A DNA stretch of 25,863 nucleotides from the IMG/VR virus record IMGVR_UViG_3300013101_000077, positions 1-25,863 of that record; one strand, given 5' to 3'. Below the pieces are notes generated by a model. That model was not told the DNA's origin, searched no databases, and saw nothing but the letters and a program-made list of their open reading frames with translations. This DNA comes from a virus. The position numbers were made by a program, and so were the translations under genes. Below, piece after piece: positions 40 to 25,863 of this stretch (positions within the stretch are counted from its first letter, which is position 1; each line of letters starts with the position of its first letter).

Positions 40-330
40 ATGGCGGAGCTTGTGACCATGGAGACATACGCTTCATGGAGTCCACAAGCTAGGACAGAGT
101 TCGACCTTTGGCTCCGCCTCACGACGGGGCTAGAGGTTGGGTCTGTCCAAGTGTTTGAGGTCATCATCACAGACCGCCTCATCATTACATCGCATTGGCT
201 CAAGTGGGAGGGCGGCATCTTCGCAGCGACAGACGAGGACGGCAAGCCCTATTGGTTCGCTCAGACATTCGACAGACAGCTTGGGCAATGGAAGCAATCC
301 CCTCCTATCCTCCTACGTTCGGAGACATAA
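40..330 (+). CDS. Hypothetical protein, 96 aa
   Basis: I do not recognise this protein. The start is well supported: AGGAGG sits 5-6 bases before the ATG. The product is soluble, rich in Trp and Thr, with no signal peptide, membrane segment or obvious motif; the C-terminal half alternates hydrophobic and polar residues as in a small beta-rich fold. Its TAA stop lies inside a copy of the AGACATAAACAAC motif at 323-335, so its end and the control region of the next gene overlap. Its position directly before the small terminase suggests a packaging-region or late accessory gene, but this is inference from context only. Confidence 0.75.
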   Translation: MAELVTMETYASWSPQARTEFDLWLRLTTGLEVGSVQVFEVIITDRLIITSHWLKWEGGIFAATDEDGKPYWFAQTFDRQLGQWKQSPPILLRSET

Positions 331-335
331 ACAAC
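323..335 (+). promoter_or_regulatory. Recurrent late motif, copy 1
   Basis: AGACATAAACAAC, first of six near-identical copies in the window. It ends 29 bases before the start of the probable small terminase gene and overlaps the stop codon of the gene before it. Its role, either late promoter or 5'-UTR element, is inferred from recurrence and placement. Confidence 0.5.
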
Positions 336-4650: not shown

Positions 4651-4663
4651 AGACATAAACAAC
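4651..4663 (+). promoter_or_regulatory. Recurrent late motif, copy 2
   Basis: AGACATAAACAAC, 3 bases after the large terminase stop and 43 bases before the portal start. A small GAGC-ATA-GCTC hairpin follows directly. Confidence 0.5.
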
Positions 4664-7747: not shown

Positions 7748-7938
7748 CATTCCAAGAGAGACTTGAGGAGCTTGAAGTCCTCGCAATCCGAGTGGGCGTA
7801 ATCCACAAGGTTGACAACATTGACCCCTACTCAAGAGCGTCGGCGCTTGCCGATGTCCTCGGGCTTGCCCTCCCCGATGCGTTGGACCCGGACCTACCGC
7901 TCATAACGAGGCGTGGAAGAATCGAGATAAACCCCTAA
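7744..7938 (+). CDS. Small protein coupled to the MuF-metallopeptidase gene, 64 aa
   Basis: I do not recognise this protein. ATG 7744 overlaps the stop of the preceding gene (ATGA) and has GAAGGAG about 8 bases upstream; an in-frame ATG at 7693 would overlap more and lacks a ribosome site. The product starts with an acidic amphipathic helix (FQERLEELEVLAIRVG) and a second helix, then a Pro/Asp-rich stretch (LPDALDPDLPL) and a short basic end. There is no membrane segment. Its place directly behind a MuF protein with an enzymatic C-terminal domain is where immunity or inhibitor genes sit in MuF polymorphic effector systems, so a role as inhibitor or partner of the metallopeptidase is a fair guess but unproven. 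A sigma-70-like promoter begins 7 bases after its stop. Confidence 0.7.
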   Translation: MTFQERLEELEVLAIRVGVIHKVDNIDPYSRASALADVLGLALPDALDPDLPLITRRGRIEINP

Positions 7939-7944
7939 AGGTTG

Positions 7945-7972
7945 TTGACTAGCGTGCCGATGTCTGTATAAT
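7945..7972 (+). promoter_or_regulatory. Sigma-70-like promoter A of the accessory cassette
   Basis: TTGACT (7945-7950), a 16-base spacer and a perfect TATAAT (7967-7972). It lies in a block of about 45 bases repeated almost exactly at 9121. GTTGTT (7941-7946) and AACAAC (7974-7979) form inverted half-sites around it, a possible operator. It should start transcription near 7979, upstream of the gene at 8004. Confidence 0.85.
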
Positions 7973-8003
7973 GAACAACATGAACACCAACGAAAGGCAC
8001 ACC

Positions 8004-8273
8004 ATGACCCGCACAGACATCGTTAAGGCCAAGGCAATCAACGCCCCGAAGTTCGACGCTCATGGTTGGTTCGGCAGCTACCACCCCAACCGCCCCGAGA
8101 CCAATTGCAACTCCCTCTATTGGGGAATGACGACCGCCGACAAGCTCGTTGCAATCTCCTTCCGTCAAGCAACGACCGAAGCCCCGAAGTGTGACCGTTA
8201 CTTCGGCCTCCCATTCTGCGACCTCCCCGCCAACTCCCATCTTTGCCACGACGGCGAAGCAATCCACGTTTAG
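8004..8273 (+). CDS. Hypothetical accessory protein, 89 aa
   Basis: I do not recognise this protein. ATG 8004 is preferred because GAAAGG lies about 6 bases upstream; the in-frame ATG at 7971 lies inside the -10 box of promoter A and cannot be on its transcript. The product is rich in His, Cys, Asn and aromatic residues, with several scattered cysteines (PETNCNSLYW, PKCDRYFGLPFC, SHLCHDGE), so metal binding is possible but no standard zinc pattern is clear. No membrane segment. It is the first gene of a cassette with its own host-type promoter set among capsid genes, the usual arrangement of a moron. That placement suggests expression independent of late control, perhaps early or in a lysogen. 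Confidence 0.75.
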   Translation: MTRTDIVKAKAINAPKFDAHGWFGSYHPNRPETNCNSLYWGMTTADKLVAISFRQATTEAPKCDRYFGLPFCDLPANSHLCHDGEAIHV

Positions 8274-8286
8274 GAAGTAGGACAAC

Positions 8287-9108
8287 ATGACCGTCACCTT
8301 CACCAACACCCCCGAATGGTCCGAGGTTCTCTCGGGCCTCAAGCACACGGCAATTCAGAAGTCCATCACCGAGGCGCAGGCCAAGCTCAAGGGCGAAGAA
8401 GTCCTCAAGGGCAAGAAGCTACAGCAAGCGATATGGCTCGGCGAGTCCGCTGCCCTCCAATTCGCCATCAAGCAAGAGTCCATTGACGGCGTTCCTAACC
8501 CAACATGGAATGACCCGGAGTGGGGCAACGGCGCAGTCAAGGTACAGGACGTTCCCGAGGCCGAGGACATCACAGACCTCATCGCCTTCCTTGAGGGAAT
8601 GGATTGGTCAGACTTCGCCAAGAGTCTTGTTACGCAATACAATAACACCGGCTCACTCTCCCGCAAGCAAATCGCAAGCGGTCGCAAGATGCAAGCGACC
8701 ATGGCGGCGAAGGCCAAGGCCAAGAAGTCCGAGGCAGTCGTCAAGTCCAACAAGCCAACCTCCCTAGACCTCACCGACCTCCCAAGCGGTTACTACGCAG
8801 TCCCTAACGGAAGCTCCCGCCTCAAGGTTCGGGTAGCCCGCCCGACGAAGGCGAGCAAGTGGTTCGGTTGGACGTTCGTATCGGACGGAGCGGCTTACGG
8901 GCAGCGCACCAACTACGGACGGCAAGCACCGAGCGGCAAGTATCAGGGCGACATCACCGAGGCCATTGAGGCCATCCTCGCAGACCCCTACGAGGCGATG
9001 GTTGCCTACGGCAAGCTCACCGGCTCATGCGGTAATTGCGGGCGCATCCTAGAAGACGAGTCCTCCATCGCAGCGGGCATCGGTCCCGTCTGTGCGGCGA
9101 AGTGGTAG
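8287..9108 (+). CDS. DUF6011-like protein with C-terminal zinc-finger motif, 273 aa
   Basis: The C-terminus has the pattern C-x2-C-GR-x-L-x4-SI-x2-GIGPVC (GSCGNCGRILEDESSIAAGIGPVC), a three-to-four ligand zinc-binding element common in actinophage and other phage proteins grouped as DUF6011. Before it lies a beta-rich region (about residues 165-240: GYYAVPNGSSRLKVRV...WFGWTFVSDGAAYG). The N-terminal half is helical and charged, including a Lys/Ala-rich stretch (MAAKAKAKKSEAVVKS) that could be a flexible or nucleic-acid-contacting linker. The biochemical role of the family is not known to me. ATG 8287 follows AGGAAGTAGG. It probably shares the transcript from promoter A; the second promoter begins 20 bases after its stop. 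Confidence 0.8.
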   Translation: MTVTFTNTPEWSEVLSGLKHTAIQKSITEAQAKLKGEEVLKGKKLQQAIWLGESAALQFAIKQESIDGVPNPTWNDPEWGNGAVKVQDVPEAEDITDLIAFLEGMDWSDFAKSLVTQYNNTGSLSRKQIASGRKMQATMAAKAKAKKSEAVVKSNKPTSLDLTDLPSGYYAVPNGSSRLKVRVARPTKASKWFGWTFVSDGAAYGQRTNYGRQAPSGKYQGDITEAIEAILADPYEAMVAYGKLTGSCGNCGRILEDESSIAAGIGPVCAAKW

Positions 9109-9128
9109 AGAGGAATCGCTAAAGGTTG

Positions 9129-9156
9129 TTGACTAAGCTACCGATGTGTGTATCAT
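9129..9156 (+). promoter_or_regulatory. Sigma-70-like promoter B of the accessory cassette
   Basis: TTGACT (9129-9134), a 16-base spacer and TATCAT (9151-9156). The surroundings from 9119 match promoter A with only a few changes, including the spacer element CCGATGT. GTTGAC (9128-9133) and GTCAAC (9158-9163) form an inverted pair flanking the core. Transcription should start near 9163, upstream of the gene at 9188. Confidence 0.78.
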
Positions 9157-9187
9157 GGTCAACATAAGCAACGGCGAAGGAGCCACA

Positions 9188-9589
9188 ATGAAGACAGCAA
9201 CCTACCTCCAAGGATACGACTTCCGCACAGCGGGCGATTGGAACCCCGAGACTCAGAGCGAAGAGAACGTCACGACCTTTGAGACCATGCCCGACTACAT
9301 CATGTGGGGCGGACCCAAAGCGGGATTCTCGGCAGCTTGGGAATTGGCAGCAGGCTATCGCAAGGTTCTCTCTTTCGACATCCCCGAAGAGGGCGATGTT
9401 GAGACAGCTTACGCAATGACGCAGAACGGCTTTGAGGGTTCCGTCACAGACGGCCTCAAGGTTCGCTCGGCAGTCATCGGCGATGTCTACGTTATCGACG
9501 GCGATGCTTTCGCCATCATGCCTTGCGGATGGTCGAAACTCACGGCAGCGGACCTCGGCAACATCCTCGCACGATTGGAGACCAAATAG
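9188..9589 (+). CDS. Hypothetical accessory protein, 133 aa
   Basis: I do not recognise this protein. ATG 9188 has GAAGGAG about 7 bases upstream; the in-frame ATG at 9146 lies in the spacer of promoter B and is rejected. The product is soluble and acidic (DWNPETQSEENV, DIPEEGDVETAY), with several aromatic residues in the first half and a mixed alpha/beta look; no catalytic or binding motif stands out. It is the last gene of the cassette, driven by its own promoter and followed by a strong terminator at 9608-9640. TCGA, scarce in most structural genes here, occurs at least three times in this short gene (9381, 9496 and 9533 region), a hint of different ancestry. Confidence 0.75.
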   Translation: MKTATYLQGYDFRTAGDWNPETQSEENVTTFETMPDYIMWGGPKAGFSAAWELAAGYRKVLSFDIPEEGDVETAYAMTQNGFEGSVTDGLKVRSAVIGDVYVIDGDAFAIMPCGWSKLTAADLGNILARLETK

Positions 9590-9645: not shown

Positions 9646-9658
9646 AGACATAAACAAC
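9646..9658 (+). promoter_or_regulatory. Recurrent late motif, copy 3
   Basis: AGACATAAACAAC, directly after a terminator and 47 bases before the scaffold start. A CCGCA-AG-TGCGG hairpin follows it. A copy placed right behind a terminator is what a re-initiation site would look like. Confidence 0.55.
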
Positions 9659-12418: not shown

Positions 12419-12843
12419 TGGCACGCACCTATGGAAGTGGCCCCGTGAGCATAGAGGTCATCGGCGGACAGAAGCTCAAGTCCAACTTCAAGAAGTACAA
12501 GAAGGGTGTCCTCATCGCAGGCCCAACCATCGCAGGGGCGGTGGCGAAGAACATCGCCGAGGTAGCGAAAGACCTCGCGCCCTTTGACCCGGAGAACACA
12601 TCAGAGCCACACGTTCGGGACAACATACACATCCGCAAGATTGCAACGGGGGCGGAGGTCTTCGTCAACCGTGGCGGTACTCGGGATGATGTCCCGGCCT
12701 ACCTAGAGTTCGGCACCTACAAGATGGCTCCGAGGCCATTCCTACATCCCGCCCTCAACCTCGTACTCACGACGTTCGGCGTACAGCGAGGGGCACGCAA
12801 GGTTGGCGGGCTTCTCTCACCTAAGCGGGGAGGCATCTTCTAA
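12418..12843 (+). CDS. Neck / tail completion protein, HK97 gp10-like
   Basis: A 141-aa protein of the HK97 gp10-like family, which joins head and tail. Its hallmark is the C-terminal line YLEFGTYKMAPRPFLHPAL (about residues 98-116), preceded by the helix GPTIAGAVAKNIAEVAKDLAPFD and the strand pattern DNIHIRKIATGAEVFVN. It is coupled to both neighbours by TAATG overlaps. Position third in the neck cluster is typical. Confidence 0.9.
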   Translation: MARTYGSGPVSIEVIGGQKLKSNFKKYKKGVLIAGPTIAGAVAKNIAEVAKDLAPFDPENTSEPHVRDNIHIRKIATGAEVFVNRGGTRDDVPAYLEFGTYKMAPRPFLHPALNLVLTTFGVQRGARKVGGLLSPKRGGIF

Positions 12844-13262
12844 TGCAGAACAAGGCACATTGGCAAGCACTCTATGACGCAATGAGAGAAGCCCTAGACG
12901 ACGACGGGCAAGACCATGTACCCATATTCCACGTTACCTCTGTGGACACGCAGACGGGCAAGGGAGCAACCGCTCCGTTCATTGTGTACCGGCAAGACGT
13001 AGAGCGCAGCATGGGCACCATGGGCGGCGGAGAGCTTACCGTCCTTGACTCGGGATGGGTCATTACGTCCTACGCATTCGACCTCGGGGACGGCCTAGAC
13101 TACCTCTCCCTCATTGAGACCGCTCTCGCAGACACAACCATCACGACGGGCGACGGCTATACCACGACGGCCTTTGAGGTCATTGGCGTACAGACACTCT
13201 ACGACGATGAGTACAAGGTTTACGGAACTCACATGCGGGCCATGTGGCAGCGTTCAACGTAG
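12843..13262 (+). CDS. Tail terminator protein
   Basis: This 139-aa protein probably caps the tail tube and fixes its end (lambda gpU / SPP1 gp17-like role). It has an N-terminal helix (WQALYDAMREAL) followed by alternating strands, with FIVYRQDVERSM and VITSYAFDLGDGLDYLSLIE as the family-like core, and a C-terminal strand (DEYKVYGTHMRAMWQRST). Synteny after the gp10-like gene is strong support. Its stop TAG lies inside the 20-bp repeat 13255-13274. Normally the tail tube gene follows at once; here it is displaced by 5.2 kb. Confidence 0.8.
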   Translation: MQNKAHWQALYDAMREALDDDGQDHVPIFHVTSVDTQTGKGATAPFIVYRQDVERSMGTMGGGELTVLDSGWVITSYAFDLGDGLDYLSLIETALADTTITTGDGYTTTAFEVIGVQTLYDDEYKVYGTHMRAMWQRST

Positions 13263-13274
13263 ACATAAACAATG
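13255..13274 (+). repeat. 20-bp direct repeat, left copy, containing late motif copy 4
   Basis: CAACGTAGACATAAACAATG occurs here and again, identically, at 18360-18379. It contains AGACATAAACAAT (13261-13273) and the TAG stop of the upstream gene. The two copies bound a 5.1 kb block of genes. The motif part probably also serves as a control site for the gene at 13320. Confidence 0.8.
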
Positions 13275-13319
13275 CAGACAATACACCCCGCCCCGCATCA
13301 ACACGGAGATTCTTAACTC

Positions 13320-15008
13320 ATGGCAATGGTAGACGCAGACTGGACAATTGACAGAGCCACGGGCAACATCCGTTACGGCGGTGCAGACCACAACGGCGCA
13401 GCGACCTATGCAACGGTGATTCAATTCAGGCGTTGGCTTGGCGAGAAGGCGGATGACGCTTCCTCGGGTACCTCGGATGACGAGTACGATATCACCGACC
13501 CGACAGCCGCCGACCGTAAGACCGATAACTTCGTACAGCTTCTCGGCAACTACAACATCACTCAAGCCGAAGCGGAGCATCTCTTCGACGGTTCAATTAT
13601 CCAAGGGACGGGAGGTACCGAGGTCTTCTTCGACGGCATCATTAACTTCGGGAACTCCGACGTACAAATCCAAATCATCCAAGATGGCGCAGTCCTCGCA
13701 GACGATTGGTGGAACGAAGCGGGCGCAGGACTCAACCCCGACGCAGCGCAGGGCATCTCCCATCGCTTCCTTCTTGAGACCAAGACGGCGGGCGCGGATA
13801 TTGACGGGCGTAGGCTCATCGGTACCACTCGCACGTTCGGCAATACCTACGGCGAGTTCACCATCAACGGCACATCAAGAGGCAACAACGTCCTCGCGCT
13901 CGTTGACTCTGCCGACCTCAACAACGGAACGATAGAGGGAACCGTTGCGGGTTGGACGGGCATCACTCTTACGACCGAGGGCTTCGCACCTATCACCATC
14001 GGCGGCGTTGTGTATGACTTCTACTCGGAGTGGAATACGAACCAACCGACGAGGAGCATCAACGACTTCTACGAGCGCATGAAGTGGACGCAGAGGGACG
14101 GCTCAACCGAGACTCTTTGGGGACTCAACGGCGAACTCTTCCGGGGCATTACCCATGAGTGGGATGTTGACGGTGGAACGGGTACGTTTAGCGCCTTTGA
14201 GCTTCTCACCTTCACCAACGGAACGGCACAGCTTCTCGCAGTAGACAACGTGACCACGCCTACGAAGATGTGGGTACAGCTTCTCACCGGAACTCTACCG
14301 GGAGACAACGACCTCATCACGGGCGTTTCAACAGCGACGGCGTTGGCAGAGTTCACGGGCGGACAGTCACTAGCCCGCCCCATCTCAACACCGGCAGTCG
14401 GTGTGTCAACCGGAACGGCGCTCATCGGCGCTTACGGCTTCGGCGTAGAGGCAGACGACTTGACGGCGAACGATAAGGTATTTGACCTTACCAACACGCT
14501 CCGCACCCCGCCGAACAATGTAACCTTCACGGTCTTCGGAACGGAGAACGGCGAAGACCGCCTCCTCGTTACGAATGACAATGCGGGCGATATTGACTAC
14601 GCACAATTCACACTCAACGGCCTCCTCTCGGGTCCAACCGTTACGACTGTCACAGTCAACGGGGCCATCCCCGGAGACACCCCAACCTCGGGCACCATCC
14701 GAGTTCTACGGGTCTCGGGCATATACTCGTTGCATGATTACTCGGTATGGTCCGGGTCTGACTTCACGATTACATCGCACAACTTCTCAACGGACAATGC
14801 GATTAACGGAGCCAACACATTCATCTCCTACCTTGACCTCTTGGTTGGGGCAAGCGACCCATCCTTCACGGGGGTCTACGGTTCGGACAGAACGTACTTT
14901 ATCCGAGATAGGGATGGTGGCGGTACACCTATCAAGTCCTTTGAGACCACGGGTATCGGCGGCGCAAACGGAGGCTCGGCTACTGTCATTCGTACCTCTG
15001 ATGAGTAG
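13320..15008 (+). CDS. Large virion structural protein, 562 aa
   Basis: The N-terminal ~200 residues (VDADWTIDRATGNIRYGG..., FRRWLGEKADDA, YDITDPTAADRKTDNFVQLL, then HLFDGSIIQ, IDGRRLIGTTRTFG and GTSRGNNVLAL) resemble a large virion protein I know from many environmental phage genomes, usually annotated only as structural. The rest is Thr/Gly/Asn-rich and beta-strand-like, as in fibres or surface proteins. No enzyme motif or membrane segment. It opens the repeat-bounded block between tail terminator and tail tube. An in-frame ATG at 13326 is an alternative start; CGGAGA lies 11 bases before 13320. It may be a head or neck fibre or a baseplate component; I cannot tell which. Confidence 0.75.
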   Translation: MAMVDADWTIDRATGNIRYGGADHNGAATYATVIQFRRWLGEKADDASSGTSDDEYDITDPTAADRKTDNFVQLLGNYNITQAEAEHLFDGSIIQGTGGTEVFFDGIINFGNSDVQIQIIQDGAVLADDWWNEAGAGLNPDAAQGISHRFLLETKTAGADIDGRRLIGTTRTFGNTYGEFTINGTSRGNNVLALVDSADLNNGTIEGTVAGWTGITLTTEGFAPITIGGVVYDFYSEWNTNQPTRSINDFYERMKWTQRDGSTETLWGLNGELFRGITHEWDVDGGTGTFSAFELLTFTNGTAQLLAVDNVTTPTKMWVQLLTGTLPGDNDLITGVSTATALAEFTGGQSLARPISTPAVGVSTGTALIGAYGFGVEADDLTANDKVFDLTNTLRTPPNNVTFTVFGTENGEDRLLVTNDNAGDIDYAQFTLNGLLSGPTVTTVTVNGAIPGDTPTSGTIRVLRVSGIYSLHDYSVWSGSDFTITSHNFSTDNAINGANTFISYLDLLVGASDPSFTGVYGSDRTYFIRDRDGGGTPIKSFETTGIGGANGGSATVIRTSDE

Positions 15009-15019
15009 GGCGGTAACGC

Positions 15020-16873
15020 ATGGCAGCGACGGTTACGTTTGACGGGACAAGAGTTAATGACGCAGACTCCAATACCAATTGGGGGCATTGGGGCGGTGGT
15101 GGACCGGCTCCCGCATCGGAACCCCAACTCCGGTATCAGTATTCCGGTTCGGGTTCGGTAGGGGCGGTCAACAAGAAGGCGACGGGTACAGGCACGACGT
15201 ACAACGGCATTGACTATGACCCCGGCTCGGGTGCGATTGACATGACGGCGGCGGCGTTCCCGCTGTGGTTCCTCAAGACCTATGTATCGGACTTCTCGGA
15301 CCTCAACGCAGCGTATGGCGTAAAGGCGGCAGCGGGTAGCGCACTCGGCGACAAGTACGACTTCAACATGGCGGGCACCGACGCAAACCGCGCACCCTTT
15401 GACGAGGGCTACCCAGCGCAAGGCGGCTACCTCTTTGCTTCCATCAACCCGAACATCGCAGCTTGGCGAGAAGGGACCACCGGCACACCCTCCCTCTCGG
15501 CTGTAGATTGGTTCGGCGTGCAAGTCCTCTTCGTCAACGGTGGTGCCAAGGATGTCAACTTTGCCATTGACGCAATCGACATAGGGCGGGGGTTGTTTGC
15601 CGTGGGAACGGCATTCGACTTGAGTGCCCTCATCACCACAGACCAGAACACCATAGCGAACCGTTGGGGAGTCGTTGCAGGCGCACCGGGAGCATTCGAT
15701 TGCATCGGCCTCGTCACCATCGGTAGGGACTCGGGCGGGACGGCTCAGGCCACGATGGACGACTTCTCTATCATCACCTTCCCCGATGGCTACCAAGGTC
15801 CGGGGGATGTCGGGTTCCTCGCAGACCTAGACACGGCCTCTAGTGATATCGCATTCTCGGGCCTCTACATCAGCGACGGGGCACTAGCTACATCGGACAC
15901 TCGGGCGGACCTCGTATTCTCTGGAACGACCGGAGTGGGCGGCATCTTCGGGACGGTTCGTAACTTCCGCAACGTGACCCTTACCTCGGTCACTCCGATA
16001 CTCAACGCCGATATAGAATGCCAACTCCTTACCCAAGCCTCGGCAGACATCTCCGCTTCGGTCATCCGCACTAACTCGTTGACCTCGGTAGCGACTCTCC
16101 AAGACCCAACCTTCGGAAGCACGACGGACCTCTTTGATGTTGAGTTCATACAGGCAGGCGCAGGGCACGCAATCGAGATTGACACGGCAGGGAGCTACGA
16201 CTTCAATGACCTCATCTTCACGGGCTACAACGTGGCGGATGAAGAAGACGATTCAGCCCTAGACATCACAGAGACAACCGGCACCGTGACCATCAACATC
16301 AACGGCGGCTCTACGCCAACCTTCAAGTCGGCAGGCGCTACCGTGGTCATCGTTGCGGGCGCAGTAACGCTATCCTTCCATGTCATTGAGAGCGACCCAC
16401 CGAGGGCAGACATACAGGACGCTCGGGTACTCGTTCAAGCGGCAGCTACAGGACCGCTCCCCTATCAAGAGTCTGTCACCATCACTCGGGTAACCACTAC
16501 GGCAAGCGTGGCGCATACGGCTCACGGTCTAGCCAACGGGCAGAAGGTCAATATCCAAGGCGCAGTACAACCCGAGTACAACGGCGTACAGACCATATCA
16601 AACGTCACCACCAACGCCTACGACTACACGGTAGCGGGAAGCCCGACAACCCCGGCTACCGGAACCATTGAGTCTACGGCGGTCATCATTGAGGGTCTCA
16701 CGAATGTTGCCGGGGTCATCTCTGACACCCGGACATACGCAGCGGACCAAGACTACGAGGGGAGGATACGCAAGTCCACGGCATCTCCCTACTACAAGAA
16801 CTCTCCGCAGACGGGGACGATAGACAAGGACATTGGACAGTCCGTTACCGTAGGAATGATAAGCGATGAGTAG
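15020..16873 (+). CDS. Large beta-rich virion protein, 617 aa
   Basis: A second large structural-type protein. The first ~260 residues look like a Gly/Trp-rich surface domain (NWGHWGGGGPAPASEPQLRY; AFPLWFLKTYVSDFSDL; TQATMDDFSIITFPDGYQ), possibly lectin-like. Residues about 265-450 show repeated short strands and Thr/Ser/Asp turns (LYISDGALATSDTRADLVFS, VTLTSVTPILNADIECQLL), as in a parallel beta-helix. Near the C-terminus, AHGLANGQKVNIQGAVQPEY followed by NGVQTI...TTPATGTI is a small beta domain recurrent in phage structural proteins. A receptor- or surface-binding role is plausible but inferred. It starts 11 bases after the previous gene with only a weak ribosome site, so coupling is likely. 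Confidence 0.72.
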   Translation: MAATVTFDGTRVNDADSNTNWGHWGGGGPAPASEPQLRYQYSGSGSVGAVNKKATGTGTTYNGIDYDPGSGAIDMTAAAFPLWFLKTYVSDFSDLNAAYGVKAAAGSALGDKYDFNMAGTDANRAPFDEGYPAQGGYLFASINPNIAAWREGTTGTPSLSAVDWFGVQVLFVNGGAKDVNFAIDAIDIGRGLFAVGTAFDLSALITTDQNTIANRWGVVAGAPGAFDCIGLVTIGRDSGGTAQATMDDFSIITFPDGYQGPGDVGFLADLDTASSDIAFSGLYISDGALATSDTRADLVFSGTTGVGGIFGTVRNFRNVTLTSVTPILNADIECQLLTQASADISASVIRTNSLTSVATLQDPTFGSTTDLFDVEFIQAGAGHAIEIDTAGSYDFNDLIFTGYNVADEEDDSALDITETTGTVTININGGSTPTFKSAGATVVIVAGAVTLSFHVIESDPPRADIQDARVLVQAAATGPLPYQESVTITRVTTTASVAHTAHGLANGQKVNIQGAVQPEYNGVQTISNVTTNAYDYTVAGSPTTPATGTIESTAVIIEGLTNVAGVISDTRTYAADQDYEGRIRKSTASPYYKNSPQTGTIDKDIGQSVTVGMISDE

Positions 16874-17126
16874 CCCATCACCACAGCTAGAAGTAATTGA
16901 GTACGACGATTGGAGGCAGTCCCTCCTCGCGCGCAATGCGAACGCCGTCATGGAAACGATAGAAGCTCACCGGCAGCATGTCGATAGCTTGGAAACGAAT
17001 GTCAAACTACAGAACGCCAAGATTGCAACCTTGGAGGCGGAGCTTCGCGCTCTCACTCACCGATTCAATCTCTTCTTCATTGAGGCCCAAGGGACGGGCG
17101 CAACCACGACGGACGACGGAGGGTAA
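16866..17126 (+). CDS. Small coiled-coil protein, 86 aa
   Basis: I do not recognise the protein by family. Residues about 28-70 form a continuous heptad-like helix (METIEAHRQHVDSLETNVKL and NAKIATLEAELRALTHRF), so an oligomeric coiled coil is likely. The ends are short and disordered-looking (MSSPSPQ; GTGATTTDDGG). The start lies 8 bases inside the preceding gene, showing coupling, and the next gene follows after 2 bases. A structural linker or chaperone for the neighbouring virion proteins is a fair guess from context. Confidence 0.72.
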   Translation: MSSPSPQLEVIEYDDWRQSLLARNANAVMETIEAHRQHVDSLETNVKLQNAKIATLEAELRALTHRFNLFFIEAQGTGATTTDDGG

Positions 17127-17128
17127 GG

Positions 17129-17716
17129 ATGGCCCTAACCGTTGACTACCTCACGTTGACCATTGCAGTACCCAAGATAGACCTCACCCTCGTATCGGGG
17201 ACGGTCTACAAGTACAGCATTGGTGACACGATGCGCGCAGACATGAAGGCGCAAGAGGCTAGTGAGGAAGGCATCACCTTCCAAGATATGCACCAACACA
17301 ACACCGAGGTTCTCCTCGCAGGGATTCTCTACGCCCGAGTTGTTGAGTTCATCAACGGCTTCACCGTGACCATTGAGGACGGGCAGTATGGCGTTAACCT
17401 CTTCGGAGCAAATCACAATATGGCGGATGTCATCAACCGCAACCAAGTGTCAATCGCCGTGAACAACTCGGCGGGTCTACAGACCGTACCGGGAGGCGGA
17501 CTCTCCGGGGCGCAGGACGCAACACTCACGGCAATCTCTCGGCGTACAGGAATGCGGCAGCGCATATGGATTGACGCAGGGGACAACAACGCAGTCAAGA
17601 TGACAACCTACGAGGAGGACGGACTCACCGAGTTTGAGACTCACACGCTCCTCACACTTGAAGGCAACATACCGGACATTGACATCTCCGCCATCACCGA
17701 GAGGGGGAACCCATGA
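17129..17716 (+). CDS. Virion-associated protein, 195 aa
   Basis: A 195-aa protein with a region (FTVTIEDGQYGVNLFGANHN then MADVINRNQVSIAVNNSAGL, about residues 72-112) that I recall from structural modules of many environmental and Mu-like phages, usually of unknown exact role. The rest is beta-rich (LTLTIAVPKIDLTLVSGTVY) with a final acidic strand. No enzyme motif. GGAGGG precedes the ATG, and the stop overlaps the next ATG (ATGA). A baseplate or tail-surface role fits its neighbours, including the BppU-like gene two positions downstream. Confidence 0.72.
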   Translation: MALTVDYLTLTIAVPKIDLTLVSGTVYKYSIGDTMRADMKAQEASEEGITFQDMHQHNTEVLLAGILYARVVEFINGFTVTIEDGQYGVNLFGANHNMADVINRNQVSIAVNNSAGLQTVPGGGLSGAQDATLTAISRRTGMRQRIWIDAGDNNAVKMTTYEEDGLTEFETHTLLTLEGNIPDIDISAITERGNP

Positions 17717-18018
17717 GCATTGTAGTCCGAGGACTCTCAGGAACCAACCTCGTAGTGCGGGGTTTGGCGGAGACCTTCGGCTTACTACGACCCATATCGG
17801 CTCCCTTCTTGATGACGGATGCGCTACTCGCATTCCTATTCACGACCATGGACCCCGGCGACCGAGCGACTTCGGCGACGTTGGGCGCAGCGACCATGGC
17901 ACTCGGGTCGGCGAAGTCAAGTGCGAACATAAACAACCCGAATACCGCCACACAAACGAGACCACTCACGGCGGTCGTTCACAGAACGGGAACAGCGGTT
18001 CTCGTACATGGAGGCTAG
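17713..18018 (+). CDS. Hypothetical protein, 101 aa
   Basis: I do not recognise this protein. It is coupled to its neighbour by ATGA, with GAGAGGGGG upstream. The N-terminal third is hydrophobic and strand-like (IVVRGLSGTNLVVRGLAETF), the middle has a moderately hydrophobic stretch (APFLMTDALLAFLFTTM, about 30-46) that is borderline for a membrane helix, and the C-terminus is Thr/Ala-rich. A relaxed copy of the late motif, AACATAAACAAC at 17926-17937, lies inside its coding region 85 bases before the next gene; it may be chance. A frame at 17634-18074 overlaps it but lacks a ribosome site and is not favoured. Confidence 0.65.
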   Translation: MSIVVRGLSGTNLVVRGLAETFGLLRPISAPFLMTDALLAFLFTTMDPGDRATSATLGAATMALGSAKSSANINNPNTATQTRPLTAVVHRTGTAVLVHGG

Positions 18019-18022
18019 GCAA

Positions 18023-18367
18023 ATGGCAGACGCAGTATTCTACGAGGGGGACCGGCAACCGTACTTCCGCGTGACCCTTCTTCGTGGTGGCGAAGCCATC
18101 AACCTAGAGAACGCCGAGAGTGTGGCCTTCAAGATGTGGCGCAACGGGCGCGAGATTATGCCAACGGTTGTAACGGGTGCGGCGGTCGTAATTCAGACCG
18201 GCGCAGACACAGACAAGGGCGTAGTTGAGTACCGATGGGGGGCGGCGGACCTTGCCCTCTACGGCAACTTCACGGCGGCATTCGTCATCTCATGGCCTAC
18301 GGCTCTACCGGAGACAGTACCGGACCTCGGATACATCACGGTCCTTGTCCGCCCATCAGCAACGTAG
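18023..18367 (+). CDS. BppU N-terminal-like baseplate protein, 114 aa
   Basis: The sequence follows the N-terminal domain of baseplate upper proteins (BppU_N, an Ig-like beta sandwich): DRQPYFRVTLLRGGEAINLENAESVAFKM at the start, then KGVVEYRWGAADLALYGNFTAAFVI, and a final PDLGYITVLV strand. In lactococcal phages this domain anchors receptor-binding proteins to the baseplate; here it occurs alone without a C-terminal binding part. I chose ATG 18023 because GGAGG (18010-18014) lies 8 bases upstream; ATG 18008 is in frame but overlaps the previous gene. It ends inside the right copy of the 20-bp repeat, closing the inserted block. Confidence 0.75.
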   Translation: MADAVFYEGDRQPYFRVTLLRGGEAINLENAESVAFKMWRNGREIMPTVVTGAAVVIQTGADTDKGVVEYRWGAADLALYGNFTAAFVISWPTALPETVPDLGYITVLVRPSAT

Positions 18368-18379
18368 ACATAAACAATG
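18360..18379 (+). repeat. 20-bp direct repeat, right copy, containing late motif copy 5
   Basis: Identical to 13255-13274 over CAACGTAGACATAAACAATG, and again containing the stop codon of the upstream gene. AGACATAAACAAT is at 18366-18378, 75 bases before the tail tube start. ATGGT-GA-ACCAT follows as a small hairpin. The rest of the gap to 18453 shows no other clear signal. Confidence 0.8.
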
Positions 18380-18453
18380 GTGAACCATAGAGTCCGTAAG
18401 GGGCTTGCCTTCTAGTTTGGCATGTCCGAGGCGTACCGCATACCGGAGGCAAC

Positions 18454-18852
18454 ATGCCACATTACAGAGGACGCGACGTAGTTGTTACCTACAACTCCAT
18501 TGACGTTAGCGGCGATGGTCGCTCCGTTTCGCTTGAACAAACAGCGGACACGCTAGACGATACCGTTTACGGAATGGACGAACGCACCAAGATTGCATCG
18601 CTGGAAGACGGAACCTTCTCTCTTGAAGCTCTTGACATCACCGGCACTTGGAGCGCAGCATGGAACGAGCTTAGCGTTGGCGCAAGCAACACCATGGTCA
18701 TTCAACCCGAAGGAACGAACACCGGACTCAGGGAAGTCTCATTCACCGGGGTCATCACATCCCGCTCACTTGAACTCCCCTACGACGACCTTGCCAAGAT
18801 ATCCGTATCGGGCGAGATTTCAGGGCCGGTTACAGAGGGCGTACAGTCCTAG
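18454..18852 (+). CDS. Major tail tube protein
   Basis: This subunit is expected to stack as hexameric rings to form the tail tube. The 132-aa size, beta-rich sequence and lines such as YNSIDVSGDGRSVSLEQTAD, DERTKIASLEDGTFSLEALD, and LREVSFTGVITSRSLELPYD with the ending ISVSGEISGPV fit short siphovirus tube proteins. The position before the frameshifted tail chaperones and tape measure is decisive. CGGAGG precedes the ATG. It has its own leader with a copy of the late motif and is followed by a strong hairpin, as expected for the most abundant tail protein. Confidence 0.88.
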   Translation: MPHYRGRDVVVTYNSIDVSGDGRSVSLEQTADTLDDTVYGMDERTKIASLEDGTFSLEALDITGTWSAAWNELSVGASNTMVIQPEGTNTGLREVSFTGVITSRSLELPYDDLAKISVSGEISGPVTEGVQS

Positions 18853-18915: not shown

Positions 18916-19188
18916 ATGAGTGCGGCAATTCGGACAGTAAACATTGAGGGGCATGGCCCCGTTGAGTACGATAGCGATATGCCCATGAGGGCAATCCGTG
19001 GTCTCATGTCGGGAGCCAATGACGGCGACTTCGCAGAGATGATTACAGGGCTTGCATCCTTCGTAATCTCATGGCCCTTTGAGGGCAGTCCCGCAGACGA
19101 GGAAGCGTGGGATGACCTTCGGCGCTCCGAGTTCAACGATACGGTTACAGCCGTCGTTGAGGACTTGGGTTCGTTGGGGGAAGAATAG
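18916..19188 (+). CDS. Tail assembly chaperone, short form (gpG-like)
   Basis: This 90-aa acidic protein should bind the tape measure during tail assembly, as lambda gpG does. The sequence is helical (DMPMRAIRGLMSGANDGDFA, then EMITGLASFVISWPFEG) and ends with an acidic tail (SLGEE). Its place between tail tube and tape measure is the conserved position. The -1 frame takes over at its 3' end and is open for 61 more codons, giving a longer gpGT-like product. GAGGAGGT precedes the ATG. Confidence 0.88.
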   Translation: MSAAIRTVNIEGHGPVEYDSDMPMRAIRGLMSGANDGDFAEMITGLASFVISWPFEGSPADEEAWDDLRRSEFNDTVTAVVEDLGSLGEE

Positions 19189-19361
19189 GGAGGGCGCTAG
19201 TTGTATCTAGCGTCGGTGGCGGAAGTCCTCCCTACGAAGTAGTCCGCCTACGAGTGTGCGAGAAGATGCATTGGACGTTTGAGGAGTTTGACAACACTCC
19301 CGGCGCTTCCATCTTTGAGGCGCTTGAGGTTTGGCGTTTAGAGGACGATAAGGTTGTCTAG
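18916..19361 (+). CDS. Tail assembly chaperone, frameshifted long form (gpGT-like)
   Basis: A -1 shift near 19176-19182 joins the 88 codons ending at 19179 to a second frame reading from 19179 to the TAG at 19359-19361, for about 148 aa. The extension reads GGRIGRALVVSS and later EKMHWTFEEFDNTPGASIFE followed by ALEVWRLEDDKVV, which looks like the gpT-type domain that recruits tail tube subunits; the M-x-W-T-x2-E-x3-D-TP line is typical. The -1 frame has a TGA at 19158-19160, so the shift must occur between 19161 and 19188. The +1 frame closes within about 30 bases. The second frame lacks a convincing start of its own. Long-form synthesis by programmed frameshifting is the rule for this gene pair. 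Confidence 0.85.
19176..19182 (+). other. Probable -1 ribosomal frameshift site GGGGGAA
   Basis: In the zero frame this reads TTG GGG GAA GAA TAG. Glycine tRNA on GGG can re-pair perfectly one base back. The A-site codon GAA would shift to GGA, an imperfect match, so the heptamer is not fully canonical. It is the only homopolymer run inside the permitted window 19161-19188, and a stop codon follows within two codons. Confidence 0.72.
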
Positions 19362-19385
19362 GTGTACCGACACCACTATCACCAC

Positions 19386-19442: not shown

Positions 19443-19455
19443 AGACATAAACAAC
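19443..19455 (+). promoter_or_regulatory. Recurrent late motif, copy 6
   Basis: AGACATAAACAAC, 14 bases after a strong hairpin and 36 bases before the GTG start of the tape measure gene. As with copy 3, the order hairpin, motif, gene suggests transcription restarts here. Confidence 0.55.
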
Positions 19456-22887: not shown

Positions 22888-24234
22888 ATGGCAACTACAA
22901 CATTCTTTGACGCAACCTTCGGAGTCCGAGCAATCGGGAACCGTACAGACAACACCGGCACTCCCACGGTAGACCTTACCGCAGAGGAGGACCGCTTTGA
23001 CAACCTTGACATCGGGGCGGGTTACATCGCGCCCATAGACTCCTTCCTCGTAGCGGCGGCTACCGTGTGGAATATCGACGTTGGCAGCGGGGCCACGGAT
23101 ACAGACCTCTACATCGTTGAGGGCAACCTCCCCGGTCAAGGCAACTACATCGTTCGTCTTGACCAAGCGGGAGCGGTCATCACCATCACGGCGGCGGACG
23201 GGTCCAACCCTCGCATAGACGAAGTGTACCTTATCGTTGCCGACGACGCATACGACGGCGGCGCTGTTTCGCTACCTAGACTCGCACTCCGTACCGGGGT
23301 AGCGGCGGCAAGCCCCTCGGCTCCCGGCGCGGATGCGGGTTGGGATGCATGGATTCTACTCGCAACTATTGACCTCCCCACGGCAGCGGCGAACATCGGG
23401 GCCACCACGATTACCGACGAGCGCACCATCGCCTCTCTTGTCATCGACGCTATCACTTTGGGCGGCAAGACGGCGGACGACTTCTCGGCTACCACTCACG
23501 ACCACGACCTCACCTACACAGACATAGCCCACGAAGATTCACGGGACGGGCACCCCCACGCAACGACCTCCCTTGACGGGATGTTTGCGGCTGTGGACAA
23601 CGCCAAGCTCAACGCCATAGAAGCGAGTGCGGATGTCAACGAGACTCCCGCCGAATTGCTCGCATCTATCAAGACGGTTGACGGCCCCGGCTCAGGCATT
23701 GACGCAGACAAGGTGGATGGCATCACCGGAGGTTCCATCTCAACGAGCGGTCACAACCACGACTCACGGTACTACACAGAGACCGAAACCAATGCCAAGT
23801 TTGCAGCCAAGTCAGACACAGACGAAGCGGTTGCCGTCTACCTCGCAGCGGTGGGGTCTGCCAACGTAGGCAATCTATCGCTCGTAGACATGGCCTTCCC
23901 CTCGGAGACTCGGGACGATTGGGGCGGGCACGCAGGCTCTAGCGGAACCATCTCGGATGACAACGCAGGCTTCTACCTCGTAGAGGCTCAAGTCCTATGG
24001 GCTTCCAATGCTACAGGCTTCCGCCAAATCCAAATCAACCACAGCGGGGACGGCGTAATTGCTCTACAGCGCATGGACGCAATCTCAGGGGACAGCACCA
24101 CAGTACGATGCTCTACCATCGTTCATATGAACGGCTCAGAGACAGTAACGGCGAAGGTCTACCAAGAGTCCGGGGGCAACCTCGCATATCACGATACACA
24201 TAGCCACTTCCGATTGACCAAGTTGGGAGGCTAG
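22888..24234 (+). CDS. Tail fibre / receptor-binding protein, paralog 1
   Basis: This 448-aa protein probably forms a trimeric fibre at the tail tip. The N-terminal ~180 residues (MATTTFFDATFGVRAIG..., VDLTAEEDRFDN, GQGNYIVRLDQAG, NPRIDEVYLIVADDAYDGG) are shared with the next two genes and likely form the attachment and shaft base. The shaft carries fibre signatures DGHPHATTSLDGMFAA and SGHNHDSRYYTETETNAKFA (about 288-308). The last ~105 residues, starting DDWGGHAG near 343, alternate strands and end HFRLTKLGG, like a C1q/TNF-type jelly-roll head. It starts 2 bases after the Dit stop with no clear ribosome site, so it is probably coupled. Confidence 0.85.
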   Translation: MATTTFFDATFGVRAIGNRTDNTGTPTVDLTAEEDRFDNLDIGAGYIAPIDSFLVAAATVWNIDVGSGATDTDLYIVEGNLPGQGNYIVRLDQAGAVITITAADGSNPRIDEVYLIVADDAYDGGAVSLPRLALRTGVAAASPSAPGADAGWDAWILLATIDLPTAAANIGATTITDERTIASLVIDAITLGGKTADDFSATTHDHDLTYTDIAHEDSRDGHPHATTSLDGMFAAVDNAKLNAIEASADVNETPAELLASIKTVDGPGSGIDADKVDGITGGSISTSGHNHDSRYYTETETNAKFAAKSDTDEAVAVYLAAVGSANVGNLSLVDMAFPSETRDDWGGHAGSSGTISDDNAGFYLVEAQVLWASNATGFRQIQINHSGDGVIALQRMDAISGDSTTVRCSTIVHMNGSETVTAKVYQESGGNLAYHDTHSHFRLTKLGG

Positions 24235-24237
24235 AGC

Positions 24238-25596
24238 ATGGCACCGACCACCACATACACAGACACCAAGATTGGCATACGTTCCATCACGGCACGCACC
24301 AACGCAGCGGGCGCGCCTCTCGTAGACCTCTCCGCAGAGGAAGAGCGGTATTCCAACTACCTTTTCTCCGAGGGATGGATTGCCCCCACCGATGCCTTTG
24401 AGCCGGTCAAGGGTTCGGCAGCTACTTGGGATGTCATTATTGGCTCAGGCGCGGCGGACGTAGACCTCTACGTTGTCCAAGGCCAAGGTACAGGGCAGGG
24501 GAACTACGTTGTACGCCTTGACCAAACTACGGACACCATCGTTGTAGACTCCTCGGACGTTAGCAACCCTCGCACCGATGAGGTTTACCTCGTTGTGATT
24601 GACGACGCATACGATTCCACGGGTCTCTCCTTGGCACGCTTCGGCTACCGGAAGGGGGACGCAGGACCGGCAGCAACGGCACCGGGACCAGACCCCGCTT
24701 GGAATGCCTATGCCCTCCTAGCCACGGTCCTCGTACCGGCTTCCTCTACGGACATCCTCGCATCTACTCTCACCGACGAGCGCATACAGTCTCAGAGTAC
24801 GGCGGACGCTCCTACCCTTGAGGGTAACGCTCCCACGGACCTCGCACTCGCAACGCATCTTCACAACTCGGACTATGCATCTCAGGCGCACGACGGCGCA
24901 ACCTCGGGGCACCCCCTCGCATCGGGAGCGGAGACCGGCTTCTTCTCGGCAGCGGGTAAGACCAAGCTCAACTCCATAGAGGCGTTGTCCGAGGTCAACT
25001 TGACACCCTCGGAAGCGCGCGCATTGCTACTCACGGTTGACGGCTCAGGCTCGGGATTGGATGCGGACACCATAGACGGAACCAACGGGGGTAGCTTCTC
25101 GTTGACCTCCCACACTCACGACTCAAGCTATTACACAGAGTCCGAGGTCAACGCAGACCTCTCACCCTTGGCTTGGAGTGCGGAGCAAGTATCAGTCCTC
25201 CGCCCCGCAGTCATTCTCACGGCCTCGGGTTTTGAGCATACTCCTCTCATGTACGCAGAGGAGCGAGATGATTGGGGCGGACATAGTACGGCGAGTGGCT
25301 CTAACCACTACATTTCTGATGACGGCGCAGGCTTCTACTTCGCCGAGGCGCAATGCGAGTTCGCATACTCGGCGGGCGGCAACATGCGCCAACTCCGTAT
25401 GGTACAGAGCGGGACGCAAATAGCGGTAGGGCGCATAGAGCCGGTCAGCACAGGCAGCGGGTCAACTATTGTCCGTTGTGCGAACTACGTCTACATGACC
25501 GGCGCGCAGGCCATCTACCTCTACGCCTATCAAGACAGCGGAGGCAACCTCAACCTCAACACCATCAGACTCAAGCTCACGAAGCTAGGAACGTAA
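24238..25596 (+). CDS. Tail fibre / receptor-binding protein, paralog 2
   Basis: A 452-aa paralog of the preceding gene with the same layout: shared N-terminal module (VDLSAEEERYSNY, GQGNYVVRLDQ, NPRTDEVYLVVIDDAYD), shaft with DGATSGHPLASGAETGFFSA and SHTHDSSYYTESEVNADLS (about 290-308), and a C-terminal beta domain beginning DDWGGHSTASG near 344 and ending LKLTKLGT. Conservation is highest in the N-terminal module and in the closing strands; the middle and the exposed part of the head differ clearly. GGGAGG precedes the ATG and the gap to the previous gene is 3 bases. The pair may form hetero-oligomers or bind different receptors. Confidence 0.85.
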   Translation: MAPTTTYTDTKIGIRSITARTNAAGAPLVDLSAEEERYSNYLFSEGWIAPTDAFEPVKGSAATWDVIIGSGAADVDLYVVQGQGTGQGNYVVRLDQTTDTIVVDSSDVSNPRTDEVYLVVIDDAYDSTGLSLARFGYRKGDAGPAATAPGPDPAWNAYALLATVLVPASSTDILASTLTDERIQSQSTADAPTLEGNAPTDLALATHLHNSDYASQAHDGATSGHPLASGAETGFFSAAGKTKLNSIEALSEVNLTPSEARALLLTVDGSGSGLDADTIDGTNGGSFSLTSHTHDSSYYTESEVNADLSPLAWSAEQVSVLRPAVILTASGFEHTPLMYAEERDDWGGHSTASGSNHYISDDGAGFYFAEAQCEFAYSAGGNMRQLRMVQSGTQIAVGRIEPVSTGSGSTIVRCANYVYMTGAQAIYLYAYQDSGGNLNLNTIRLKLTKLGT

Positions 25597-25597
25597 C

Positions 25598-25863
25598 ATG
25601 GCTACCACCACATATGATGACAACACATTCTCAGTACGGACCATCGGAGCGCGCACCAACTCGGCAGGCACCCCGGTTACCGACCTCACGGCAGAGGAGG
25701 ACCGCCTAGCAGTCTCCATGCTCACCGAGGGGTGGCTCAAGGAATCCAACTCATGCCTCGTAGCGAAGGGAGGCTCGGGTACGTTTGAGATACTCGTTGG
25801 CTCCGCAGGCGCAAGGACAGACTACTACGTTGTCCCCGGAGAGGACGCAGGCCAAGGGAACTA
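25598..25863 (+). CDS. Tail fibre / receptor-binding protein, paralog 3 (cut by window end)
   Basis: The first 88 residues of a third copy start 1 base after the previous stop. MATTTYDDNTFSVRTIGART, then TDLTAEEDRL, LTEGWL, ILVGSAGARTDYYVV and AGQGN line up residue for residue with the N-terminal modules of the two preceding genes. An AGGA ribosome site lies about 10 bases upstream. The rest of the gene is outside the window, so it is unknown whether the shaft and head are also conserved. Confidence 0.8.
   Translation, partial: MATTTYDDNTFSVRTIGARTNSAGTPVTDLTAEEDRLAVSMLTEGWLKESNSCLVAKGGSGTFEILVGSAGARTDYYVVPGEDAGQGN

Follow-up and report, generated by a model that had tools for sequence, protein, structure and literature searches.

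The window (the whole stretch of DNA analysed, 25,863 nucleotides, an IMG/VR record of an uncultured virus) holds six genes, B1 to B6, between the tail terminator gene and the tail tube gene, and the six are bracketed by a pair of exact CAACGTAGACATAAACAATG copies. In siphophages the head-to-tail gene order is considered highly conserved, with the tail terminator usually next to the tail tube. The block, its flanks and the copies of the motif within the repeat, here termed the slot motif, are as follows:

323..334, +, slot motif preceding the gene at 368 (160 aa) and the ribonucleotide reductase (RNR) gene
4651..4662, +, slot motif upstream of the portal gene
9646..9657, +, slot motif preceding the scaffold and capsid genes
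12843..13262, +, tail terminator gene (PHROG_176, E 0.004; Pfam Tail_completion_gp17, 0.009; synteny)
13255..13274, +, repeat copy 1, a promoter-like slot motif upstream of the block (exact match; core AGACATAAACAA at 13261-13272)
13320..15008, +, B1, 562 aa, beta-rich (AlphaFold pLDDT 88.6)
15020..16873, +, B2, 617 aa, beta-rich, same family as Rctr197k_179
16866..17126, +, B3, 86 aa coiled coil (coiled-coil profile matches)
17129..17716, +, B4, 195 aa, possible relative of Syn5 gp55
17713..18018, +, B5, 101 aa, without a sequence match
18008..18367, +, B6, 119 aa, putatively BppU_N-like, its stop codon falling within the second repeat copy
18360..18379, +, repeat copy 2, an exact match and the slot motif that precedes the tail tube gene
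18380..18453, +, tail-tube leader, alignable with the spacer between terminator and tube in relatives
18454..18852, +, tail tube protein gene (PHROG_10528, E 3e-8)
19443..19454, +, slot motif preceding the tape measure gene

An earlier note, made from the sequence alone, had placed six genes between the tail terminator and the tail tube, and these gene calls hold given the matches to PHROG_176, gp17 and PHROG_10528. In relatives, the gene immediately before the tube shares 37-49% identity with the tail terminator, and the tubes themselves are 50-67% identical to the tail tube of the window. The perfect 20-bp repeat described in that note at both ends of the block is exact and unique, with no third site in the window when up to three mismatches were allowed (chance expectation 0.01). 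It consists of the core AGACATAAACAA and flanking bases common to both copies. The core occurs exactly six times (323, 4651, 9646, 13261, 18366 and 19443), always on the + strand and either intergenic or at a gene edge, against a chance expectation of about 0.9 matches at up to two mismatches, and it opens the late gene groups of the window. Only the two copies flanking the block are followed by a T and share extra upstream bases, as had been noted before, the core being extended identically by six bases upstream and two downstream; every other pair of copies has at most three flanking bases in common. The probability that any of the 15 pairs would share at least eight bases by chance is 0.005, an estimate that ignores that TAG is a stop codon in both copies. 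This TAG ends the tail terminator gene in copy 1 and B6 in copy 2. The identity stops abruptly, the next base being mismatched on either side.

A scan of IMG/VR with an exact 16-mer of the motif gave 58 matches, single and scattered, and no second exact core copy was found in the fetched loci; the motif is therefore not a general element. The GC content and codon usage of the block are unremarkable relative to the window, with no compositional sign of recent entry. A transposon or site-specific integration element was rejected because there is neither a recombinase among the six block genes nor a pair of terminal inverted repeats, and the direct repeat is the slot motif itself. An assembly artefact was likewise rejected, as the genes of the block are unbroken, run on directly from their putative promoters and recur in the same order elsewhere.

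The terminator-tube junction in relatives

A megablast search of the window against phages gave no match. Eight relatives were found through the major capsid protein (MCP, 57-69% identical), and a ninth contig, L073, was added through the tail tube, for which a single-sequence search gave no match and an alignment-based search was used. The sample thus comprises eight or nine relatives, several on short contigs, with L007 and L008 apparently representing one lineage. The tail terminator adjoins the tail tube in seven of the eight relatives (L007, L008, L009, L068, L069, L070 and L072) and in L073, and between the two genes each of these eight contigs carries one copy of the phage's own motif. 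The earlier note had proposed looking for exactly this arrangement; the opposite outcome, in which all relatives carry the block in the same place with the repeat eroded or absent, was not found among them. In the remaining relative, L071, the same slot is filled by the portal gene, the gene that follows it and additional ORFs. Terminator stop and portal start overlap without a motif at their junction, and the motif is retained only before the tube. The portal and the next gene of L071 (12894-17491) have thereby shifted from their usual place after the terminase into the terminator-tube gap.

In a concatenated tree the window is sister to L069 and L073 (UFBoot 94, SH 0.99), with L068 and the rest outside. 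Because the window is nested inside the group of its relatives, the block is derived and was gained in the window's lineage; within the sampled relatives it is almost certainly an insertion. The locus is thus a natural insertion that breaks the conserved siphophage order, with an empty-site control in relatives. Deletion of an ancestral block between direct repeats would also leave a single motif copy, as the relatives have. Such a history is very improbable: it requires several independent losses on the tree, the terminator-tube adjacency is the usual siphophage order, and B1, B2 and B4 were found nowhere in the relatives' contigs over the sequence searched. Downstream of copy 2 the window can be aligned with the spacer that separates terminator and tube in relatives, so that 18380-18453 is the original spacer and copy 2 occupies the ancestral motif position; copy 1 is then probably the added copy. 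The leader at 18380-18453 and its cognate spacers in L008, L068, L069, L070 and L071 are hairpin-prone, with a partly conserved TAGTTT-like loop. Hairpins were predicted in most relatives, with energies only modestly below those of shuffles (z-scores mostly -1 to -2; -0.1 in the window), and no RNA structure is claimed for the leader.

The slot motif and late transcription

Every relative carries a motif word of its own, and the slots are the same throughout: before the scaffold, tube and tape measure genes, and also before the terminase and portal genes where these were seen. The suggestion in the earlier note that the motif acts as a linker at module boundaries is borne out by this placement in every relative. 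The words are CCAGTATTCTCTTAG, GCCAGTATACTAGAA, CGGAGCTAGGCATAAG, GGAGCTAGTAATGGATC, CCCTATA[CT]TATTGTGGT, GGGCTATAATC, GACTATAATCA and GGGGTAGAAATGG; L072 and L071 have CTATAATC ahead of several late operons. Comparison of the leaders of the scaffold, tube and tape-measure genes gave common words of 11-17 nt in six phages, where shuffles reached a maximum of 7-8. The motif core is TATAAT in just two relatives, L071 and L072, and TATACT or TATTCT in others, and the distance from motif to start codon is 33-102 nt.

A repeated element at the starts of late operons, with its position kept among relatives, is what is expected of a late promoter, and the slot motif is likely such an element, a candidate promoter with one copy per transcription unit. 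Like phage late promoters, it stands once before every late module, its slots are shared by all relatives, and two of the relatives have TATAAT. It departs from such promoters in that its sequence changes sharply between close relatives and that no conserved -35 element was seen by inspection; nor is ACATAAACAA, the motif of the window, a -10 box of the sigma-70 type. The simplest reading would be that the motif is read by a phage-specific factor differing between lineages. Fixed in its slots although its sequence changes, the promoter-like motif offers an easy means of recognising late operons in phages that have not been cultured. The late region also holds promoters of a second class, unlike the slot motif: two 84-nt copies (7924-8007 and 9108-9191, 74% identical) precede small genes, and both carry a sigma-70-like consensus promoter made up of TTGACT, a spacer and TATAAT or TATCAT.

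The motif could instead be a one-sided repressor or terminator-factor site or a translational element. Cluster A stoperators are asymmetric, in a single orientation, intergenic and repeated within one genome. The same holds for the start-associated sequences (SAS) of cluster K mycobacteriophages (PMC3203893), and the slot motif has all of these properties, being, like SAS, a short, genome-specific repeat ahead of genes. SAS, however, belong to the non-structural half of the genome and are 3-7 bp away from the start codon, whereas the slot motif lies 33-102 nt upstream of late operons. The single copy per late operon at fixed slots and the TATAAT core in two relatives (TATACT or TATTCT in others) also argue against either type of site, which is considered unlikely relative to a late promoter.

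The cassette in other phages and the Syn5 horn genes

A search with B4 led to a contig (L085) in which B1, B2, a coiled coil and B4 occur in the same order among genes otherwise unlike those of the window. Relatives of B4 were present in at least 193 IMG/VR contigs by alignment search. Among the best 80 of the 193 loci, some of them near-duplicates, B1 was found in 62 and B2 in 63, in order and upstream of B4. The order B1-B2-B3-B4 recurs in about 60 of these 80, on backbones of siphoviruses, myoviruses and others of unknown type. B1 is conserved along its whole length in about 60 loci, and in the B4 family the N-terminal 120 aa are conserved and the C-terminus is variable. The slot of B3 is kept across cassettes, as a 60-115 aa ORF in most, and its sequence is not. 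B4 is often followed by small ORFs whose size and position resemble those of B5 and B6, the B5 slot holding an ORF of 80-100 aa. The surroundings vary: portal and capsid genes flank the cassette in L152, a siphophage that also has a B6 relative downstream; sheath genes adjoin it in L102 and L122; and in L121, likewise a siphophage, it lies upstream of the tail terminator, tube and tape measure. The block is therefore a real and widespread cassette common to otherwise unrelated phages, which goes beyond what the earlier note had proposed, as does the link to the Syn5 horn genes described below.

No PHROGs or PDB match was found for B1 or B4 in any of 34-38 family members, and the only Pfam match was a marginal one to a DUF. 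Searches by tblastn with B1 and B4, including other family members, gave no match in 50,697 phage records, and B6 gave none in cultured phages. Scans of prokaryote genomes for the MCP and B4 with narrow patterns found none. With B4 in at least 193 viral contigs and neither B1 nor B4 in a PHROGs family, the inserted genes belong to a common, previously undescribed cassette, predicted to encode virion proteins.

Remote homology, with Virus Rctr197k as an intermediate, connects the cassette to the cyanophage Syn5, whose gp53 and gp54 build its capsid horn. A fold search with the B1 model gave meaningless PDB matches (TM about 0.1); its best BFVD match was Syn5 gp54 with poor superposition (TM 0.22), which was used only as a lead, and inspection of the Syn5 gene neighbourhood suggested gp53 as the counterpart of B1. 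With an HMM of the gp53 family (five proteins aligned), B1 ORFs took the top five places among 1,854 ORFs (rank P 4e-8, which treats ORFs as independent though some loci are near-duplicates), and in the reciprocal search all five gp53-family proteins ranked first among 29. Alignment of B1 with gp53 by hhalign was colinear over 175 aa with an E of 3e-4 and a probability of only 39%. The first large gene of the cassette is thus a remote homologue of the first large gene of the horn module. In Virus Rctr197k a gp53-family gene, a B2-family gene (hhalign E 5e-39) and a gp55-family gene are consecutive, so that the B2-family gene fills the position of gp54. Homology between gp54 and B2 was not detectable by hhalign (E 0.027, probability 2%), and the cassette is for this reason not filed as a member of the horn module, only as related in kind. 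Between gp55 and B4 there was no hhalign match, and a B4 was the top match of the gp55-family HMM among the 1,854 ORFs (E 0.005), a weak link.

The Syn5 horn stands at the capsid vertex opposite the tail (PMC10575957). The gp53-gp54-gp55 genes of Syn5 and S-TIP28 resemble the cassette in having two large beta-rich structural genes followed by a small one, with B1 a remote homologue of gp53. They differ in that the T7-like podovirus Syn5 lacks this insertion, gp54 has no detectable relationship to B2, and the gp55-B4 link is weak. On balance, the cassette probably encodes an appendage of the virion akin to the horn of Syn5, and would then connect to a capsid structure of unclear role.

A module attached to the tail, a fibre or receptor-binding structure, is a serious competitor to a capsid horn and was judged only somewhat short of even odds. 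The C-terminal part of B2 (503-558) is common to phage tail spike and SGNH-hydrolase proteins, and in T4-like contigs the cassette adjoins the tail sheath gene. B6, in addition, resembles a baseplate part. The AlphaFold model of B6 is poor (pLDDT 60), and its top phage structure matches are all BppU-type baseplate chains (TP901-1, 80alpha, NF5; E about 0.004-0.02). The N-terminal domain of BppU (TP901-1 ORF48; 80alpha and NF5 baseplates) is thus what the model matches first, but B6 lacks a fused receptor-binding part, has no sequence match in Pfam, PHROGs or PDB, and the E of about 0.01 comes from a pLDDT 60 model. The BppU_N-like call in the earlier note draws weak support from these fold matches and none from sequence, and B6 may tentatively be described in this way. 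Against a tail module, the cassette occurs with different tail types, and the B1 and B2 families meet Syn5 gp53-type genes, which are reported to encode capsid horn proteins.

Slot changes and the arrival of the block

A search with B6 returned only the sister contig L069, where a homologue 49% identical to B6 stands before the scaffold gene and ends inside that phage's motif; cassette genes therefore change slots. Upstream of RNR, L072 has a surface-protein ORF and a weak relative of B6 (E 0.003), and in L009 collagen-like and lyase-like genes precede g4. Surface modules occupy several slots among the relatives of the window, with the order of the head-neck core kept.

The explanation favoured here, held with better than even confidence, is that a surface-appendage cassette of the Syn5-horn kind was inserted at a promoter-bearing junction. 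The complete cassette, B1 to B6, would have entered where the head-completion operon, whose last gene is the tail terminator, meets the tail-tube operon, a junction carrying a phage-specific late-promoter element. After insertion the element would stand on both sides, copy 1 driving the cassette and copy 2 the tail tube. B1 would correspond to gp53, B2 to the protein in the gp54 position and B4 to gp55, and B6, as a BppU-like adaptor, may dock the appendage on the virion, where a surface or receptor role would be expected.

The least certain part is how two copies arose. The earlier note had proposed insertion by recombination at the motif; the insertion stands, given the empty site in relatives, and recombination at the motif is possible but unproven. 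The block may have entered by homologous or micro-homologous recombination between motifs, from another slot or from a co-infecting relative with the same motif, leaving the 20-bp repeat as a footprint. This is a sub-question of the favoured explanation, compatible with it, and was rated as plausible but rather less than evenly likely. The perfect repeat extends eight bases beyond the core (chance 0.005), and a junction of B6 with the motif exists at the scaffold slot of L069. However, 12-20 bp is short for homologous recombination, and function keeps motif copies alike anyway: a repeat of this length is expected from recombination and equally needed if inserted and displaced operons each keep a promoter. 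The slot in L071, moreover, took up a portal module at a motif-free junction where terminator stop and portal start overlap, so insertion in this slot does not require recombination at the motif. A wider proposal, speculative and held with low confidence, is that horn or appendage cassettes missing from Pfam and PHROGs are widespread and have spread among tail types, with late-promoter motifs as the joints for entry and slot change, each module bringing its own promoter. The slot motif makes such promoter-linked module exchange testable.

Several features of the window lie outside the block. The ribonucleotide reductase gene (954-2936) belongs to the late region and immediately precedes the terminase, as it also does in L072; in L071 it is near the terminase. 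Downstream of the tail tube, a possible tail-assembly chaperone frameshift lies at 19170-19370, where a 90-aa ORF starting at 18916 has GGGGGAA near its end and is followed by a start-less stretch in another frame, with a counterpart in relatives. Tandem paralogous tail genes occupy 22888-25863 (g22888, g24238 and a third cut by the window end) at a spacing of about 1,357 bp, and L073 has three copies.
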